The notes beneath the pieces were generated by a model that saw only the letters and a list, made by a program, of their open reading frames with translations, did not search any database and was not told the origin of the DNA. A program made the translations under genes and the position numbers. Shown here in pieces: positions 4,287 to 10,857 of a DNA stretch of 64,000 nucleotides. Within the stretch, counting starts at the first letter, position 1. Every line of letters starts with the position of its first letter. Location of the stretch: contig JAJDED010000011.1 of NCBI GenBank assembly GCA_029259915.1, forward strand, positions 124,001 through 188,000, in the 5' to 3' direction. The DNA is from Planctomycetota bacterium. GTDB taxonomy: Bacteria > Planctomycetota > Planctomycetia > Pirellulales > Lacipirellulaceae.

Positions 4287-5018
4287 ATGAATCACATCCA
4301 TACTTCTCCAATAAAATTACGTCGACTTGCTCGATGGCAGCAACGTATAGTAGCTGTCTCAACCGCTGTGTGGTTTCTCACTGCCGGGAGTTGGGCGACT
4401 GCCGCTCCGGTCGCGCTCGTCAATGCCGACTTCGAGCAGGGAAGCCCGGCACCACCGATCGTTGATCCCGGGGGATCAAGCTACGTCGGAAACATTCCAG
4501 GGTGGAACGTGGTGAACGGAGGTGGCGTATTCGAGCCCAACTTCGTCTCGCAAGTTTCTTATCCCGCCAGTGTCCAGGCGACCGTCGGCGACTTTGTAGC
4601 CTCTTCCTCGGGCCCGGCCGGGGGGCTGGTCACGCAACTTCTCGACGCGTCGTTCACCTATCAACCGAACCAGATTTATACGCTTAGCGCCGATTTCGGA
4701 CACCGATTCGATTTTCCCTTTGGCGGCAGTTTTGGGTTCTATCGTCTTGCCAACCCGTTTCCGACCGCGGTCGCTGTCGCAGGCGTAGTCGATCCGGGGC
4801 TCGGCAACTTTTCACGCCAGACTATTGTTCTAAATTCACCAGTCACCGACACGGGAGGCCGAATACGAATTGGTTTCTCTGGAAGCGGTATGCTGGGACA
4901 AATAATTGACTTCGACAACGTAACGCTGACAATCACAACGATTCCCGAACCAACAGCGCTGCTCCTCCTCGGCATCGGCCTGGCCATGGGAACAATGCGG
5001 CGTTATTTGTCGTACTAA
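4287..5018 (+). CDS. PEP-CTERM sorting-domain protein (243 aa)
   Basis: ATG at 4287 with CGGAG 11 bp upstream. A long signal peptide (basic region to residue 20, hydrophobic core, cut near ATAAPVALVN) is followed by a beta-rich domain beginning NADFEQGSP, typical of extracellular galactose-binding-like (CBM-type) modules in PEP-CTERM proteins. The C-terminus has IPEPTALLLLGIGLAMG followed by RRYLSY: the PEP motif, hydrophobic helix and basic end used by exosortase. The mature protein should be exported and surface- or matrix-attached. It heads a run of three PEP-CTERM genes in the same direction. Ligand unknown. Confidence 0.85.
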   Translation: MNHIHTSPIKLRRLARWQQRIVAVSTAVWFLTAGSWATAAPVALVNADFEQGSPAPPIVDPGGSSYVGNIPGWNVVNGGGVFEPNFVSQVSYPASVQATVGDFVASSSGPAGGLVTQLLDASFTYQPNQIYTLSADFGHRFDFPFGGSFGFYRLANPFPTAVAVAGVVDPGLGNFSRQTIVLNSPVTDTGGRIRIGFSGSGMLGQIIDFDNVTLTITTIPEPTALLLLGIGLAMGTMRRYLSY

Positions 5019-5107
5019 TGTTGGGTGCCGCTTTGAGAGTAGATGTGCAGCAGGCCGTTGGGTCACAAAGACAACCCAAACATAATCACACGAAAGGCAC
5101 TTCAGTC

Positions 5108-5653
5108 ATGGTCCGAACCCTCGCCGTGTTTGCTTTCGTCGCGATTCTGATAGCCGGTTACACAGCATGTGCCGCAGTGGTATTCGAGTACACTGGGGAG
5201 CAGTTCACGACCGTCAGTAGCCCATTTACCACGACAGATTTTGTGTCCGGTTTCGTGGAGTTCTCATCGCCGCCCCTGCCGCTGGGAACATTCGACGCGA
5301 CCGACATTTCTGATTACGCCTTCACCGCCGGGCCACTTACCCTGACGCCAAGCACGCCTGGCAGCGGAGCCGTCGGCACTTTCACTTTCGACGCTAGCGG
5401 CGAAATTGCCACTTGGCTGATCACCTTCACCGGGTTCACTCCCGGTACCAATAACAGCCTGGACGAAATCATTAACACCGACTGGAATGGCTTTGACGGC
5501 GACGATTACGCGGATATCGACGACGCAACCGCAGGTCAAGCATTTAACGAACTGTCTCCGGGCGTGTGGAACTCAATCCCCGAGCCATCGTCGCTGGCGC
5601 TGATGGGCTTGGGCTGTGCCGTACTGGGATTGCGTCGCAGACTTAACTACTGA
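5108..5653 (+). CDS. PEP-CTERM sorting-domain protein (181 aa)
   Basis: An upstream in-frame ATG exists at 5018, but ATG 5108 is preferred: it is preceded by GAAAGG and is directly followed by a clean signal peptide (RTLAVFAFVAILIAGYTACA). The mature part is a small beta-rich Thr/Ser/Asp-rich domain without Cys. The end is NSIPEPSSLALMGLGCAVLG then RRRLNY, a full PEP-CTERM signal. About 90 bp follow the previous PEP-CTERM gene without a terminator, so the two may be cotranscribed. No enzymatic motif seen. Confidence 0.82.
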   Translation: MVRTLAVFAFVAILIAGYTACAAVVFEYTGEQFTTVSSPFTTTDFVSGFVEFSSPPLPLGTFDATDISDYAFTAGPLTLTPSTPGSGAVGTFTFDASGEIATWLITFTGFTPGTNNSLDEIINTDWNGFDGDDYADIDDATAGQAFNELSPGVWNSIPEPSSLALMGLGCAVLGLRRRLNY

Positions 5654-5767
5654 TCAAGTCTTGTGTTGTGTATTTACCAGAAAAGCTTGCTTTTTTCGCG
5701 GATTGCAATCATAATAGAGCATTCTTGCATGCATTCTCCGACGCTACACAAACAGAGATTTTTTCTA

Positions 5768-6580
5768 ATGCGTATCCCTTTCTTCGCCACCTTGATTCTG
5801 TTTTGTTTGGCCCTGGCTTCTGCTACTCAAGCCGCAACATTGGCCTATTGGCGATTTGAAGAGGGCACGCCCGGGGGCGCTGTTTCGGGGCCCGGCTCTG
5901 TGATCGATAGCGCCGGTGGTTTCCACGGCTCGCCCGTGGGCGGACCCACTTACAGTGGCGACGTACCAATCAACCCGGTTCCTCTTACTGCCGCTTCTAA
6001 TGGCGTAAGTTTAGACCTGCAAAACGGTAGCGATTATGTCACTATTCCCGACCCCACTTCCGCGCTAATTCCAACGGCAGCGATTACGGTTGAGGTTTGG
6101 ATGAAGTCGGGCGGCACGCAGCCAGAATTTCAGTCGCTGGTGGTCGACCACTCTCATGGTTGGACCGACGAAACGGGTTGGGCTCTGCAAGGCAACGGTG
6201 GGAATACGCGAATTGATTTCATCATCGGCAATGGCAGCACTTTTCCGTTAGCGCGCTCCACGACCAATGTCTTCGACGGCCAGTGGCACCACGTGGCCGG
6301 CGTGTACAACTTGGCGAACGTGGGCCAAGAGATCAAGATTTTCGTCGACGGCCAACTTGAAGACACGGCTACCACCGCCACTGCACTTGCCGCCAATACT
6401 CGCGACGTGCACATCGGTTCCTCCTGGCACGGAACGCTGCCCACGAATCGATTCTTTCACGGTCTCGTCGACGAGGTGCGCATCTCCGACGTGGCACTTG
6501 CGCCGCAACAGTTTCTCGTAATGGTTCCCGAGCCAAGCGCCGCGCTGCTTACCATTGTCGGATTTGCAGGGCTGGGCTAA
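5768..6580 (+). CDS. LamG/concanavalin-like PEP-CTERM protein with shortened C-terminus (270 aa)
   Basis: ATG 5768 starts a signal peptide (RIPFFATLILFCLALASATQA). The mature protein begins LAYWRFEEGTPGG and contains EVWMKSGG, GQWHHVAGVYN, IKIFVDGQ and GLVDEVRISDVAL: the ordered motifs of a LamG/concanavalin-A-like lectin domain (residues ~20-245). The end reads VPEPSAALLTIVGFAGLG and stops before the usual basic residues. In the next reading frame the DNA continues LSRNFNRFCWR before a stop, so a one-base shift may have removed the basic tail of the sorting signal. Probably an extracellular glycan-binding protein. Confidence 0.82.
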   Translation: MRIPFFATLILFCLALASATQAATLAYWRFEEGTPGGAVSGPGSVIDSAGGFHGSPVGGPTYSGDVPINPVPLTAASNGVSLDLQNGSDYVTIPDPTSALIPTAAITVEVWMKSGGTQPEFQSLVVDHSHGWTDETGWALQGNGGNTRIDFIIGNGSTFPLARSTTNVFDGQWHHVAGVYNLANVGQEIKIFVDGQLEDTATTATALAANTRDVHIGSSWHGTLPTNRFFHGLVDEVRISDVALAPQQFLVMVPEPSAALLTIVGFAGLG

Positions 6581-6846: not shown

Positions 6847-6872
6847 GACCGTTCCCTTGCAAGGAGATTGCA

Positions 6873-7265
6873 ATGCAGACTGCGCTACCAGAGTATCGTC
6901 GCATTCAATACCAGGGAAAACCGTACTACGGCCAGCACGCGCTCGTAACGGCTCTGGGTTGCAACGATCATTTGCTTTCGATTGAGAAGATGTACGAATT
7001 CCTGCAGACAATGGCAGACGAAATCGGAATGGTTCGATACGGCCCGCCAATCGTCGCGCGGTTTGGAAGTGAAATCGAGACCGGCATCTCGGGCGTTCAG
7101 TTGATCGAGACGAGTGCCATCACGATCCATACCAACGACGCCCATCGCGACATGTATTTGGACGTTTTTAGTTGTAAGTCGTTTGAAGCAAAAACCGTGA
7201 AAGAAGTACTGGACGACTTTTTTTCTCCTTCCTCGGTTGAATGTGAGGTGATCTATAGGAAATGA
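6873..7265 (+). CDS. S-adenosylmethionine decarboxylase (SpeD)-like pyruvoyl protein
   Basis: 130 residues; AAGGAG 6 bp before ATG 6873. It matches the small prokaryotic AdoMet decarboxylase (class 1B) fold along its length: YYGQHALVTALGC at the front, ISGVQLIETSAITIHT in the middle and LDVFSCKSFE after it. Counting from the Ser of ETSAI, His is at +5 and Cys at +20, exactly the spacing of Ser63, His68 and Cys83 in the Thermotoga enzyme, so the self-processing and catalytic residues are kept. But the usual ESH is TSA and the TWPE following the His is TNDA, so specificity may differ. It overlaps the SET gene by 4 bp. No spermidine synthase is near, so a classic polyamine role is not implied. 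Confidence 0.75.
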   Translation: MQTALPEYRRIQYQGKPYYGQHALVTALGCNDHLLSIEKMYEFLQTMADEIGMVRYGPPIVARFGSEIETGISGVQLIETSAITIHTNDAHRDMYLDVFSCKSFEAKTVKEVLDDFFSPSSVECEVIYRK

Positions 7266-7783
7266 GAATATACCCTTCCCATCTCAGTCCGGTTTCCCTT
7301 GAACCGCAGATTGAGGACTTTTGTGTGGTCGACGTTGATTCCGAGTTTGGTCAGGGACTTTTGGTCTTGCGCAGCTTTCAGCAAGGCGAAACATTGTTCC
7401 GCATGAATGGTATCTTGACCAGCGAATTAACATTGCATTCGCTACAACTGGCTCCCGATTTGCATATGGACGATCCTTATGTCGCGGGAAAGGTACTGCA
7501 TAGCTGCGCCCCAAATTCGCGATTGGAGGTGGCAACCCAACTCTTCATCGCTAATCGAGCCATCGAAGCGGGAGAGCTACTGACGATGGATTATGAAGAG
7601 ACTGAAGACGTCTTATTTCGACCCTTCATGTGCTGCTGTGGAGAAGCGGAATGTCGCGGAGAGATCGTGGGCAGGCAGCCTTCCCTGGCAACCTCCGGTG
7701 CCGAATTACAGACGTGTAATTTACAAGAACTTGTGTACGAGTTGCCATTACGCGAACGCTATCCCCGGCGAAAACCAGCTTAG
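7262..7783 (+). CDS. SET-domain protein (probable protein-lysine methyltransferase)
   Basis: 173 residues; its ATG overlaps the stop of the SpeD-like gene (ATGA), so translation is coupled. Motifs in order: SEFGQGLLVLRSFQQGE (residues ~27-43, SET-N), LHSCAPNSRLE (about 80-90, the NHSCxPN AdoMet pocket with Asn replaced by Leu), AGELLTMDYEETED (about 101-114, GEELTxDY) and CCCGEAECRG (about 123-132), a post-SET zinc cysteine cluster. All parts of a compact SET methyltransferase are present. Bacterial SET proteins usually methylate lysines of proteins; the target here is unknown. Its partner uses the same cofactor, AdoMet. Confidence 0.85.
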   Translation: MRIYPSHLSPVSLEPQIEDFCVVDVDSEFGQGLLVLRSFQQGETLFRMNGILTSELTLHSLQLAPDLHMDDPYVAGKVLHSCAPNSRLEVATQLFIANRAIEAGELLTMDYEETEDVLFRPFMCCCGEAECRGEIVGRQPSLATSGAELQTCNLQELVYELPLRERYPRRKPA

Positions 7784-7821
7784 GGTAACAACTAGACTAT
7801 GTGAGAAAGGAGCCATCGATC

Positions 7822-8283
7822 GTGGACGATAATGGAATTCTCAAACAATGTCGGATTGAAAACGAGGCATTGTGCCACACACGTGACGCGCTTTTGGCTA
7901 TGATTGCCTGGCCTGTCGAGGGGAAGATGTTTACCCGCAAACTGTCGGGCTTGCGTTTTATGGCACGCTGGTTTCAACAGCAAGTAGAACGCCTTTTTAG
8001 AATTGAAGAACTCGACGGTTACATGGCCATGGTCATTGAATCCGCACCTTATCTGTCTGAAAAGATTAAGGTTTTGCAAGACGAGCATACAACGCTCCAA
8101 AATCAACTCTCCGAAATCGCAACGCGATTGGAGCGAGTGCTTCCCGACGATTTCGATGCTCTCAACGAACTGTGCAACGATCTAAAGTCGGTTTTGAAGG
8201 CCCTCGGCGATCATATGCGCAAAGAGAATTTCTTTATTCAAGATTCGGTGAACCAAGACCTTGGAGGAGAGGGTGGGCTTTAA
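7822..8283 (+). CDS. Hemerythrin (HHE)-like four-helix protein
   Basis: GTG 7822 is chosen because AAAGGAG ends 9 bp before it; a GTG at 7801 in frame has no such site. 153 residues, nearly all helical. FRIEELDGYM (~60), LQDEHTTLQNQL (~85) and HMRKENFFIQDSVNQDLGG (C-terminal) match the ordered HxxE/EHxxL/HxxxE...DIGG pattern of hemerythrin-like proteins, although the His expected before FRIEE is Leu, so metal binding may be incomplete. It lies 38 bp after the SET gene in the same direction and probably belongs to the same transcript. Could sense oxygen or hold a di-metal site; function unproven. Confidence 0.6.
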   Translation: MDDNGILKQCRIENEALCHTRDALLAMIAWPVEGKMFTRKLSGLRFMARWFQQQVERLFRIEELDGYMAMVIESAPYLSEKIKVLQDEHTTLQNQLSEIATRLERVLPDDFDALNELCNDLKSVLKALGDHMRKENFFIQDSVNQDLGGEGGL

Positions 8284-8465
8284 CGCCTGTCAGCCAGTAG
8301 TCAGTTGGGAGCGTGGTTGTGATTGATGGTGCATTCGGAGTGCGGGCTCAATATCGATCGAATGGGACCGTCACCACTCCAATCTAACGTACTACTCGAT
8401 GCTTTGTTTTGGCATTGGTTTTGCTCTATAATATTGTCCAGCTGATTGCCGCTTGGAGAATTGAC

Positions 8466-10076
8466 ATGCAGCAGGCCGTTGTGCCACGCGTTTTGGTGAG
8501 TTGCCTAGTCGGGTTGACGGTCTGGCTGTGCGTGGTGCCGGTCGAGGCGGTGCCTGCGCCGCAGGATGTGGTGATGTACGAAGTCAACCTCCGCGCGTTC
8601 AGCCAAGCCGGAGACCTTGCGGGAGTGACGGCCCGAATCGATGAGATTCAAGCTCTGGGCGCCAATACAATCTGGCTGATGCCGATCCATCCGATCGGGC
8701 AGATAAACATAAAGGGCGAACTTGGGTCGCCTTACTCTGTGCAGGACTACGGCGTGGTCAGCAGCGAGTACGGGGCGTTGTCCGATCTGAACACGCTGGT
8801 CGATGCGGCTCACAATCGCGGCATGTTCGTGATGATGGACTGGGTCGCCAATCACACCGCTTGGGATCACGCGTGGATTTCTTCCAATCCCGGCTGGTAC
8901 ACGCAGAACGGTCAGGGCCAAATCATCCATCCTCCCGGGACAAACTGGACCGACGTTGCTGATCTCAATTTCAGTAACGCGACGATGCGCTCGGCAATGA
9001 TCAGCGAGATGCAGTACTGGGTGTCGGATGTGGGGATCGACGGTTTCCGCGCCGACGCGGCAGACTTTGTCCCCTTCGATTTCTGGCAGCAGGCGATCCC
9101 CGCCGTGCGCGGCGCCACCACGCGCCCGTTGCTGATGTTGGCCGAAGGGGCGCGCAACGATCATTACACCGCCGGCTTCGATATGACCTTCGGCTGGAAT
9201 TTTTACAATACCGTGAAGTCGGTTTTCATCTCGTCGAACTCGGCGACCACCTTGGGCGAGGCCCACAATACGGCACAGGCTCAAGTCCCCGCGGGCAAGA
9301 GCATCCTGCGATTCACCACGAATCACGACGAAAGCGCGTGGGACGCCACGCCGGTCACCCTGTTCGGCGGCCTGGATGCTTCGCTGGCCGCTTACGCGGT
9401 GACCGTTGCCTATGGCGGATCCCCACTGGTTTATAACGGACAGGAAATCGGCTGGGGGCCGAACGTGCCATTTTTCTCGAAGTCGCCACTCGACTGGACC
9501 ACCGGAGGGGCAACTGCCGACTGGTACACGCAGCTGCTCGGCATCCGTGAAGATCACATTGCCTTGCGCGAAGGCACACTCACCGACCAAAGCGACAGCG
9601 ACGTGGCCTTGTTGATGCGCGAGCACGCGGGCGATCAGGTTTTGGTGTTGGTCAACACGCGCAATCAAGCCAGCCAGATCGAGATTCCCTCTGAATGGCT
9701 CGGCGGATGGTTCGATCAGTTCACCGGAACTGCGGAGCAATTAACTTCGTTACGCACCCTCAATCCGTACGAAGTACTGATCCTTGCCGCGACGCCGCCT
9801 AGTGTGCCGGGCGATTTCGACGTCGATGGCGACGTCGACGGTACTGATTTTCTCCAATGGCAACGGGGTAACCCACCCCTTGCGTCCGACCTTACCAAAT
9901 GGCAAACCAACTACGGCACAGCCGCCGCGCTCTCGGCAAGCTCCGCCGTCGTGCCTGAACCGGCTACAAGCATCATGCTGCTACTCGGTTTGCTGCTGCT
10001 AAACTCTCGCAGTAGCAGCAAACATTACGTACACGCGTTTCAATCCAACCGGAGATCAGGAACGTTGCCGACGTAG
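8466..10076 (+). CDS. Secreted GH13 alpha-amylase with dockerin-like segment and PEP-CTERM
   Basis: ATG 8466 is preceded by TTGGAGA and followed by a signal peptide ending near VPVEAVPA. The GH13 barrel shows DWVANHTAWDH (region I), GIDGFRADAADF (region II, nucleophile Asp), LMLAEGARND (region III, acid Glu) and FTTNHDESAWD (region IV), so it should be active on alpha-glucans. After ~440 residues comes GDFDVDGDVDGTDFLQWQRG, the planctomycete dockerin-like calcium segment, then VPEPATSIMLLLGLLLL and an unusually long basic tail. Expected outside the inner membrane. Its 3' end overlaps the convergent gene at 10056 by 21 bp; no terminator is seen between them. Confidence 0.9.
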   Translation: MQQAVVPRVLVSCLVGLTVWLCVVPVEAVPAPQDVVMYEVNLRAFSQAGDLAGVTARIDEIQALGANTIWLMPIHPIGQINIKGELGSPYSVQDYGVVSSEYGALSDLNTLVDAAHNRGMFVMMDWVANHTAWDHAWISSNPGWYTQNGQGQIIHPPGTNWTDVADLNFSNATMRSAMISEMQYWVSDVGIDGFRADAADFVPFDFWQQAIPAVRGATTRPLLMLAEGARNDHYTAGFDMTFGWNFYNTVKSVFISSNSATTLGEAHNTAQAQVPAGKSILRFTTNHDESAWDATPVTLFGGLDASLAAYAVTVAYGGSPLVYNGQEIGWGPNVPFFSKSPLDWTTGGATADWYTQLLGIREDHIALREGTLTDQSDSDVALLMREHAGDQVLVLVNTRNQASQIEIPSEWLGGWFDQFTGTAEQLTSLRTLNPYEVLILAATPPSVPGDFDVDGDVDGTDFLQWQRGNPPLASDLTKWQTNYGTAAALSASSAVVPEPATSIMLLLGLLLLNSRSSSKHYVHAFQSNRRSGTLPT

Positions 10077-10709
10077 GAGCGCGGCTCCAGCCACTAGCGC
10101 AAGCAAAGAAATCGATGTCGGCTCAGGGACGTATTGAAAACTGACATCGTCGATCCCCAACTCCTGCCCGCCAATTGCCAGGCTGGAGATTGGTCCGGTA
10201 AGCGTGACAGTTCCTTTGGTGCCGCCGGCAATTGGTGACCATAAGGCAAAGACGTTCACACCTGCGACAACTGCGGGAGTAGCTACGAAGTCCGACAGCT
10301 CTATGACTGTGCCGTTAATAACCAGGTTCTCGTCGCCACCGAAATCGGCATAGTGGAAGGATGCACTAGTGACCGGCCCTCCCAGGCCGCTGATATCGAA
10401 GTCCAGCCGAATATTACTAATCGTTGCTGGAGTCGTCGGAAATGATGGATCGGTAAATCCACCGATCGTGACGCTGATGAATCCAACAAACGCACCCTGC
10501 GTAAAATTGTCAACGTGAACCCCAACACCATCTTCAGTAAATACCAAGTCGCCGGGCGAGTTGCTCAGCGGCGCAGGCGAACCACCGAACTGAGTGCCAA
10601 CAACCTGCGATTCGAAGTCTACGGTTGCCGTTAGGGCATGTGCTGGACCGCTCATTAAGGCTATTGCAGTCGAAAATAATACCAAACCGAACAATTTCAA
10701 ATTTGTCAT
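10056..10709 (-). CDS. PEP-CTERM sorting-domain protein (217 aa)
   Basis: ATG 10709 has AGGAAT about 8 bp upstream and leads directly into a signal peptide (TNLKLFGLVLFSTAIALMSG, cut near AHA-LTATVDF). The mature part is a beta-rich domain starting VDFESQVVGTQF, with an internal LRLDF-type strand pattern resembling other planctomycete extracellular PEP-CTERM proteins. The end is YVPEPTSISLLALVAGAALL followed by RRQRS, a complete sorting signal. It converges on the alpha-amylase gene. No catalytic motif was found. Confidence 0.83.
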   Translation of the reverse strand: MTNLKLFGLVLFSTAIALMSGPAHALTATVDFESQVVGTQFGGSPAPLSNSPGDLVFTEDGVGVHVDNFTQGAFVGFISVTIGGFTDPSFPTTPATISNIRLDFDISGLGGPVTSASFHYADFGGDENLVINGTVIELSDFVATPAVVAGVNVFALWSPIAGGTKGTVTLTGPISSLAIGGQELGIDDVSFQYVPEPTSISLLALVAGAALLRRQRS

Positions 10710-10857
10710 TTTAGATATTCCTAGGAAAGTAAGTTGCTGTTGTACGTTGCGGCTATTTACAAGAAACGAAACTTGCTTTTTTCGGAACATAAGCAACTCC
10801 TGGGACTACTTCGTGTGTGTCTGTGAGACAGGTCCGCAAGCAGACCCACCAATGCAT

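Follow-up and report, generated by a model that had tools for sequence, protein, structure and literature searches.

The described systems closest to the locus reported here are the S-methylmethionine (SMM) route to DMSP in Burkholderia thailandensis and the decarboxylases of the SpeD fold. The SET-domain enzyme BurB converts methionine and AdoMet to SMM and does not act on MTHB or MMPA (PMC12542666), and removal of burI from B. thailandensis causes SMM to accumulate (PMC7496086). BurI and SMMDC, both known to decarboxylate SMM, resemble the diaminopimelate-decarboxylase type; in Spartina, an enzyme for this reaction evolved from an ornithine decarboxylase (PMC11464771). The enzyme of Streptomyces mobaraensis is treated as a BurB homologue in two papers (PMC7496086, PMC12542666), whereas another lists MmtN there (PMC9135737). 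Uptake of DMSP by a planctomycete transporter has been reported (PMC13342039); we found no report of DMSP synthesis in planctomycetes in the accessible part of the literature. Among SpeD-fold enzymes, the references are the class 1b AdoMet decarboxylase (AdoMetDC) of Thermotoga maritima (1tlu, 1vr7) and the SpeDC ornithine decarboxylases (PMC10407285).

The window, meaning the whole stretch of 64,000 nucleotides that was analysed, comes from a 4.2-Mb assembly of a Planctomycetota bacterium of the family Lacipirellulaceae (GCA_029259915.1, contig JAJDED010000011.1) that has a single PF02675 match. Its open frames confirmed three genes in one direction (Table 1), as set out in a preliminary description of this DNA, and its sequence likewise confirmed the spacing given there: the SET gene starts inside the stop of the SpeD-like gene (ATGA, a 4-bp overlap), and the HHE-like gene starts with the GTG at 7822, 38 bp past the SET stop. 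Pfam supports all three proteins, the SET domain only narrowly above its cut-off. The HHE-like start matches that of the homologue in the relative G007; a longer frame from 7801 was disfavoured because that homologue agrees with the start at 7822. By eye, PEP-CTERM-like secreted proteins and an alpha-amylase flank the SpeD-SET pair (window 4287-6580 and 8409-10796); the alpha-amylase shows, also by eye, an EF-hand/dockerin-like repeat near its C terminus, and its PEP-CTERM score is below the cut-off.

Table 1. Genes and sites of the locus, in window coordinates
Feature	Position	Strand	Details or basis
AAGGAG, likely ribosome-binding site of the SpeD-SET pair	6861-6866	+	Sequence; predicted
SpeD-like gene	6873-7265	+	130 aa; HTND type; PF02675 62.3 bits (cut-off 25)
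Ser81 codon, predicted pyruvoyl precursor (T. maritima Ser63)	7113-7115	+	Alignments
His86-Thr87-Asn88-Asp89 codons, catalytic His and HxND mark in place of HTWP	7128-7139	+	Alignment
Cys101 codon (T. maritima Cys83)	7173-7175	+	Alignments
SET gene	7262-7783	+	173 aa; PF00856 22.6 bits (cut-off 22.4)
Tyr111 codon of the SET protein (BurB Tyr124)	7592-7594	+	Invariant in 15/15 rows
HHE-like gene	7822-8283	+	PF01814 27.8 bits (cut-off 25.3)

The AF2 model of the SpeD-like protein (pLDDT 94) takes the fold of Thermotoga AdoMetDC (1tlu, 1vr7; TM 0.76 by query, 0.84 by target), unlike the PLP decarboxylase fold of BurI and SMMDC. The catalytic set of Ser81, His86 (+5) and Cys101 (+20), equivalent to T. 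maritima Ser63, His68 and Cys83, is invariant in all 29 rows of alignment A8. ESH has become TSA and TWPE has become TNDA, with Asn88-Asp89-Ala90 where AdoMetDC has Trp-Pro-Glu, so that the motifs read in the preliminary description (Ser, His +5, Cys +20, TSA, TNDA) proved exact by alignment. In the T. maritima enzyme, Trp70 and Glu72 presumably hold the adenosyl group. The TIGR03330 equivalog model scores 38.8 bits against a cut-off of 75.65, and no spermidine synthase gene is adjacent; the genome has one PF01564 match (66.4 bits), inside a 570-aa frame. A bona fide AdoMet decarboxylase was considered and rejected because TIGR03330 falls below its cut-off and TWPE is lost. The Pro that marks bona fide AdoMetDC (PMC10407285), at its position as placed in this analysis, is missing, HTND standing for HTWP. 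Of the SpeDC marks from the same source, again as placed here, Gln76, Thr80 and Tyr95 are present and Phe is replaced by Thr87; SpeDC thus shares with the window protein the fold, the Ser/His/Cys set and these three marks, and differs in having HF where the window protein has HxND after the catalytic His, and the SET neighbour is a feature of this locus.

In a tree of 67 SpeD rows, which has few columns and long outgroup branches and omits rows escaping the motif pattern and viral rows at least 72% identical to one taken, the SET-linked rows together with the viral locus L103 form one clade (96/86), apart from a sister clade of HF type (94/88); a further split (99/94) separates the two clades from the AdoMetDC-type rows. 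Judged by the published marks as placed here (PMC10407285), the HF-type rows resemble SpeDC ornithine decarboxylases. Since the SET-linked rows form one clade apart from the HF-type clade, the altered motif behind the catalytic His tracks with the presence of a SET partner. The earlier suggestion that the substrate of the SpeD-like protein has changed is probably right.

The SET protein is BurB-like. With phmmer against the PDB, BurB is its best match (E=3e-28; the next best is 0.0019), and the SET protein of viral locus L101 also finds BurB (2.6e-26). BurB takes Foldseek ranks 1-3 for the SET model, at 41-42% identity, the model being weak (AF2 pLDDT 60). Three SAM-contact positions are kept, namely His59, His80 and Arg120 (BurB His72, His93 and Arg133), as is the Tyr listed in Table 1; in alignment A7, His80 and Tyr111 are invariant in all 15 rows and the Arg120 position holds Arg or Lys. 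Differences at BurB contacts are Phe29 at Arg42 (a position that is Arg in 11/15 rows of A7), Gln31 at Ala44 and Cys125 at His138. In a tree of 33 SET sequences, the Eleftheria terrae protein groups within the SpeD-paired SETs (94/88), its neighbours being those of Rhizobium and L102 (89/67), and support is weak (51/83) for the branch that separates BurB-like SETs from the other bacterial ones. The BurB-like SETs of E. terrae and Sphingomonas paeninsulae, both on plasmids, accompany a diaminopimelate-decarboxylase-like gene whose products score 191 and 222 bits, below the lysA equivalog cut-off of 297.9; the E. terrae cluster also holds an aminotransferase and an aldehyde dehydrogenase. With BurB as its closest PDB match, the window SET is a putative methionine S-methyltransferase, and the earlier idea that the chemistry turns on AdoMet gains support.

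The SpeD-like and SET genes form a functional pair and are a real unit. The SpeD type is present in 14 of the 43 Lacipirellulaceae genomes searched, and the same 14 carry the SET type, each with a SET match of at least 248 bits and with the two genes adjoining in every case, overlapping by 4 bp in 13 and by 1 bp in one. This bears out the view that the first two genes belong together. A Fisher test of their co-occurrence gives 1.3e-11, a value to be read in the light of related genomes not being independent. Two family genomes (G021 and G448) have weak SET matches only (41-44 bits), and the SpeD of a further one (G026), of the different HF type, is not counted among the 14. In a search of 59 relatives, 13 genomes, the source included, have a SpeD match of at least 69% identity, in each case followed immediately by a strong SET match; weak SpeD matches stand alone in four other genomes and weak SET matches alone in four others. 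SpeD/SET frames and antisense shadows aside, no protein cluster occurs in more than five of the 17 stretches compared, so no conserved neighbour was found beyond the pair. Named relatives of the SpeD-like gene, from a contig scan that finds close relatives only, are those of Aeoliella straminimaris, Botrimarina hoheduenensis and two Planctomycetales MAGs; the genus Botrimarina is classified in the Lacipirellulaceae (Planctomycetota). Across the phylum, the SpeD profile matches in 19 of 392 genomes, none above 75 bits apart from the window; the reading covered 15 of the 18 other matches, of which 13 gave a readable motif, in no case HxND, and two did not fit the motif pattern.

A scan of 72,556 plasmid records gave SpeD matches in three and SET matches in 19. 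Plasmid p7 of Rhizobium bangladeshense carries both: an Asn-synthase-like gene comes first, then SET, then the SpeD-like gene, which has 52% identity. In a phage collection of 50,697 records, SpeD matches occur in 11, at about 31% identity or less, and there is no SET match. No relative came out of a viral scan with SET alignment A2, yet SET genes were seen next to SpeD in viral loci. We read 151 viral loci from two SpeD scans; because these were limited to the best 80 loci each and seeded with the window SpeD family, the frequencies are not representative. Within these best 80 loci per scan, HxND is found in 10 of the 151 (eight contigs, seven distinct sequences), and a SET gene stands beside nine of the 10 (seven of eight contigs). 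None of the 141 loci of the same scans with another or unreadable motif, 14 of which escaped the pattern, has a SET neighbour. Counted by distinct sequences among the best 80 loci per scan, the SET neighbour is found in 6/7 with HxND against 0/86 of the others. It follows from the 0/141 that SET accompanies the changed motif and not SpeDC in general. The SpeD gene precedes SET with a 4-bp overlap in four loci (L101, L104, L184 and L185), and SET precedes SpeD in two (L095 and L102); the pairing is thus kept although lineages differ in gene order. By Pfam, a ParB_N gene and a PAPS_reduct/DUF3440 gene flank the L101 pair.

A gene order recurs in five phage loci (L101, L104, L183, L184 and L185): ParB_N-like, SpeD-like, SET, PAPS_reduct/DUF3440 and a second ParB_N-like gene. 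These calls rest on Pfam for the L101 proteins and the L104 SET, and were made by eye for L183, L184, L185 and the rest of L104. The phage SET of this order has a C-terminal extension of about 100 aa without a Pfam match (Pfam on the L101 and L104 SETs). The one viral HxND-type SpeD with no SET within 12 kb (L103, 5926-6306) lies among glycosyltransferase-like genes, by eye.

Building on the gene pairing, fold, family relationships and conserved catalytic residues, we infer two consecutive steps, and on balance we think it probable that SET makes SMM and that the SpeD-like protein decarboxylates it; the activities, their order and the end product all belong to this inference. The SET protein would transfer the AdoMet methyl to the sulfur of methionine, giving SMM. 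The SpeD-like protein would cleave itself before Ser81, forming a pyruvoyl group, and would decarboxylate SMM to 3-dimethylsulfoniopropylamine (DMSP-amine), a DMSP precursor, as a pyruvoyl stand-in for the PLP-type BurI. The simplest reading of one SET family occurring with two unrelated decarboxylases is that the SpeD-like protein fills the role of BurI. In SMM, a methyl replaces the adenosyl group of AdoMet, and the molecule is near ornithine in size and charge. As a shortened AdoMet it fits a SpeD-fold enzyme that keeps Ser, His and Cys and lacks TWPE. To our knowledge, no pyruvoyl SMM decarboxylase has been described. The preliminary description had the steps running the other way, with SET using the SpeD product, or had SET methylating lysine; with BurB as the best match, the direction is probably the reverse, SET making the substrate of the SpeD-like protein.

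BurI, of the diaminopimelate-decarboxylase type (PMC11464771), has a SpeD-like protein in its place here, and we therefore see one decarboxylase replaced by another. Our initial expectation that BurI would itself be SpeD-like was dropped, since the diaminopimelate-decarboxylase type emerged from the gene cluster of E. terrae, from the Sphingomonas locus and from the Spartina paper (PMC11464771). The likeness to the B. thailandensis route (PMC7496086, PMC12542666) is a BurB-like SET with a decarboxylase gene; a difference is that no NRPS-PKS, aminotransferase or dehydrogenase genes are seen beside the window pair. Spartina SDC (PMC11464771) shares the proposed reaction and an ornithine-decarboxylase-like origin, but is a plant PLP enzyme of unrelated fold. 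In planctomycetes, oxidation by aminotransferases and aldehyde dehydrogenases of general function would most likely turn the amine into DMSP or another sulfonium solute related to it. BurD and BurE family homologues occur in all 43 family genomes, in none of which we found them linked to the SpeD-SET pair; burD and burE mutants of B. thailandensis still yield product, in reduced amounts (PMC7496086). The closest BurD-like aminotransferases, 49-50% identical to that of E. terrae, are at G010:C209:88975-90315 and G017:C5:1893959-1895302, in two genomes without the pair.

Several findings count against the SMM route: the phage gene context is unlike DMSP synthesis, no dedicated BurD or BurE homologue accompanies the pair, L103 has the HxND motif without SET, BurB's SAM-binding Arg42 and its His138 are replaced by Phe29 and Cys125 in the window SET, the SET model and the branch that sets BurB-like SETs apart are weak, and the nearest SpeD relatives resemble ornithine decarboxylases. 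The last is where another explanation begins, in which the SpeD-like protein would be a SpeDC-type pyruvoyl enzyme that decarboxylates ornithine to putrescine, and SET N-methylates putrescine or another small amine, or acts alone. The HF-type and HxND clades are sisters, three of the four SpeDC marks (PMC10407285), as placed here, appear present, and the genome has one Orn_Arg_deC_N match (443-aa frame) but lacks the frame of roughly 650 aa, also matching this domain, that many order-level relatives have. We nevertheless hold this explanation to be unlikely, as the fourth mark, Phe, is Thr87 at the position as placed here, the viral loci outside the HxND class (best 80 per scan) lack a SET neighbour, and the known member of this SET family methylates methionine. 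It is possible, if on the whole doubtful, that the pathway ends at decarboxylated SMM, a sulfonium amine that planctomycetes and phages would make to serve as a polyamine-like cation, to modify bases or proteins, or to act as a small aminopropyl donor with dimethyl sulfide leaving. Such a donor might, tentatively, work like decarboxylated AdoMet. On this reading the phages would perhaps carry a mobile two-gene cassette, in one lineage beside the ParB-like and PAPS-reductase-like genes.

SET domains are best known as protein-lysine methyltransferases, and annotation pipelines name such genes accordingly, so that the SET protein might instead regulate the SpeD-like enzyme or another protein by lysine methylation. 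BurB is far closer than any PDB lysine methyltransferase, by the phmmer values above, and BurB-like SETs recur beside small-molecule enzymes; these comparisons disfavour a protein-lysine role, which we regard as quite improbable. The preliminary description had further made the HHE-like protein a third part, sensing oxygen or metal. The three genes are co-directional and close in the source genome and in G007, but these are the only two of 13 pair-bearing genomes in which an HHE gene adjoins the pair (G449 was outside this search). The source genome has three further HHE matches elsewhere, and His is missing from alignment columns 18 and 58 in precisely the two copies next to the pair, while 4/5 and 5/5 paralogues compared, respectively, have it there. 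That the three proteins work together is thus very improbable, the proposed sensing role found no support, and the three-gene operon was rejected in view of the adjacency in 2/13 and the two lost His columns; the HHE gene is a neighbour and not part of the conserved unit. Of the three families whose co-occurrence was to be searched for, therefore, SpeD and SET stay together (14/14), and HHE is found apart in most relatives.

We found no description of a SpeD-like and SET pair in the literature, mainly the open-access literature in its accessible parts (including PMC11306096, PMC13360808 and PMC9992855), and the locus probably combines a known first enzyme family with a new partner enzyme in new hosts. 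If the proposed route is right, SMM and DMSP-amine synthesis also occurs in planctomycetes and is virus-encoded. DMSP is an important marine sulfur compound. The AdoMet decarboxylase fold would have gained a further substrate, and SMM decarboxylation would have no fewer than three origins, in enzymes of the diaminopimelate-decarboxylase type, in a plant ornithine decarboxylase and in a pyruvoyl SpeD. A simple sequence mark, an HxND-type SpeD beside a BurB-like SET, would then help to find sulfonium producers in genomes and in viromes, and such genes would need other names than 'AdoMet decarboxylase' and 'protein-lysine methyltransferase'.

Some other loci are worth recording. On a Tabrizicola piscis plasmid (L098, 1124-5567), a SET gene with the annotation of a lysine methyltransferase stands first in a row with genes for a GHMP kinase, a PLP enzyme, a DMT transporter and an alanine racemase, which hints at a small-molecule substrate for this SET protein as well. 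In three planctomycete genomes (L015, L062 and L063), an HF-type SpeDC-like gene has directly after it a gene that resembles, by eye, a FemAB/GNAT-type acyltransferase. In L061, a bona fide-looking SpeD gene (ESH, TWPE), an HF-type SpeD-like gene and an opposite-strand gene that is, again by eye, carboxyspermidine-dehydrogenase-like lie side by side.
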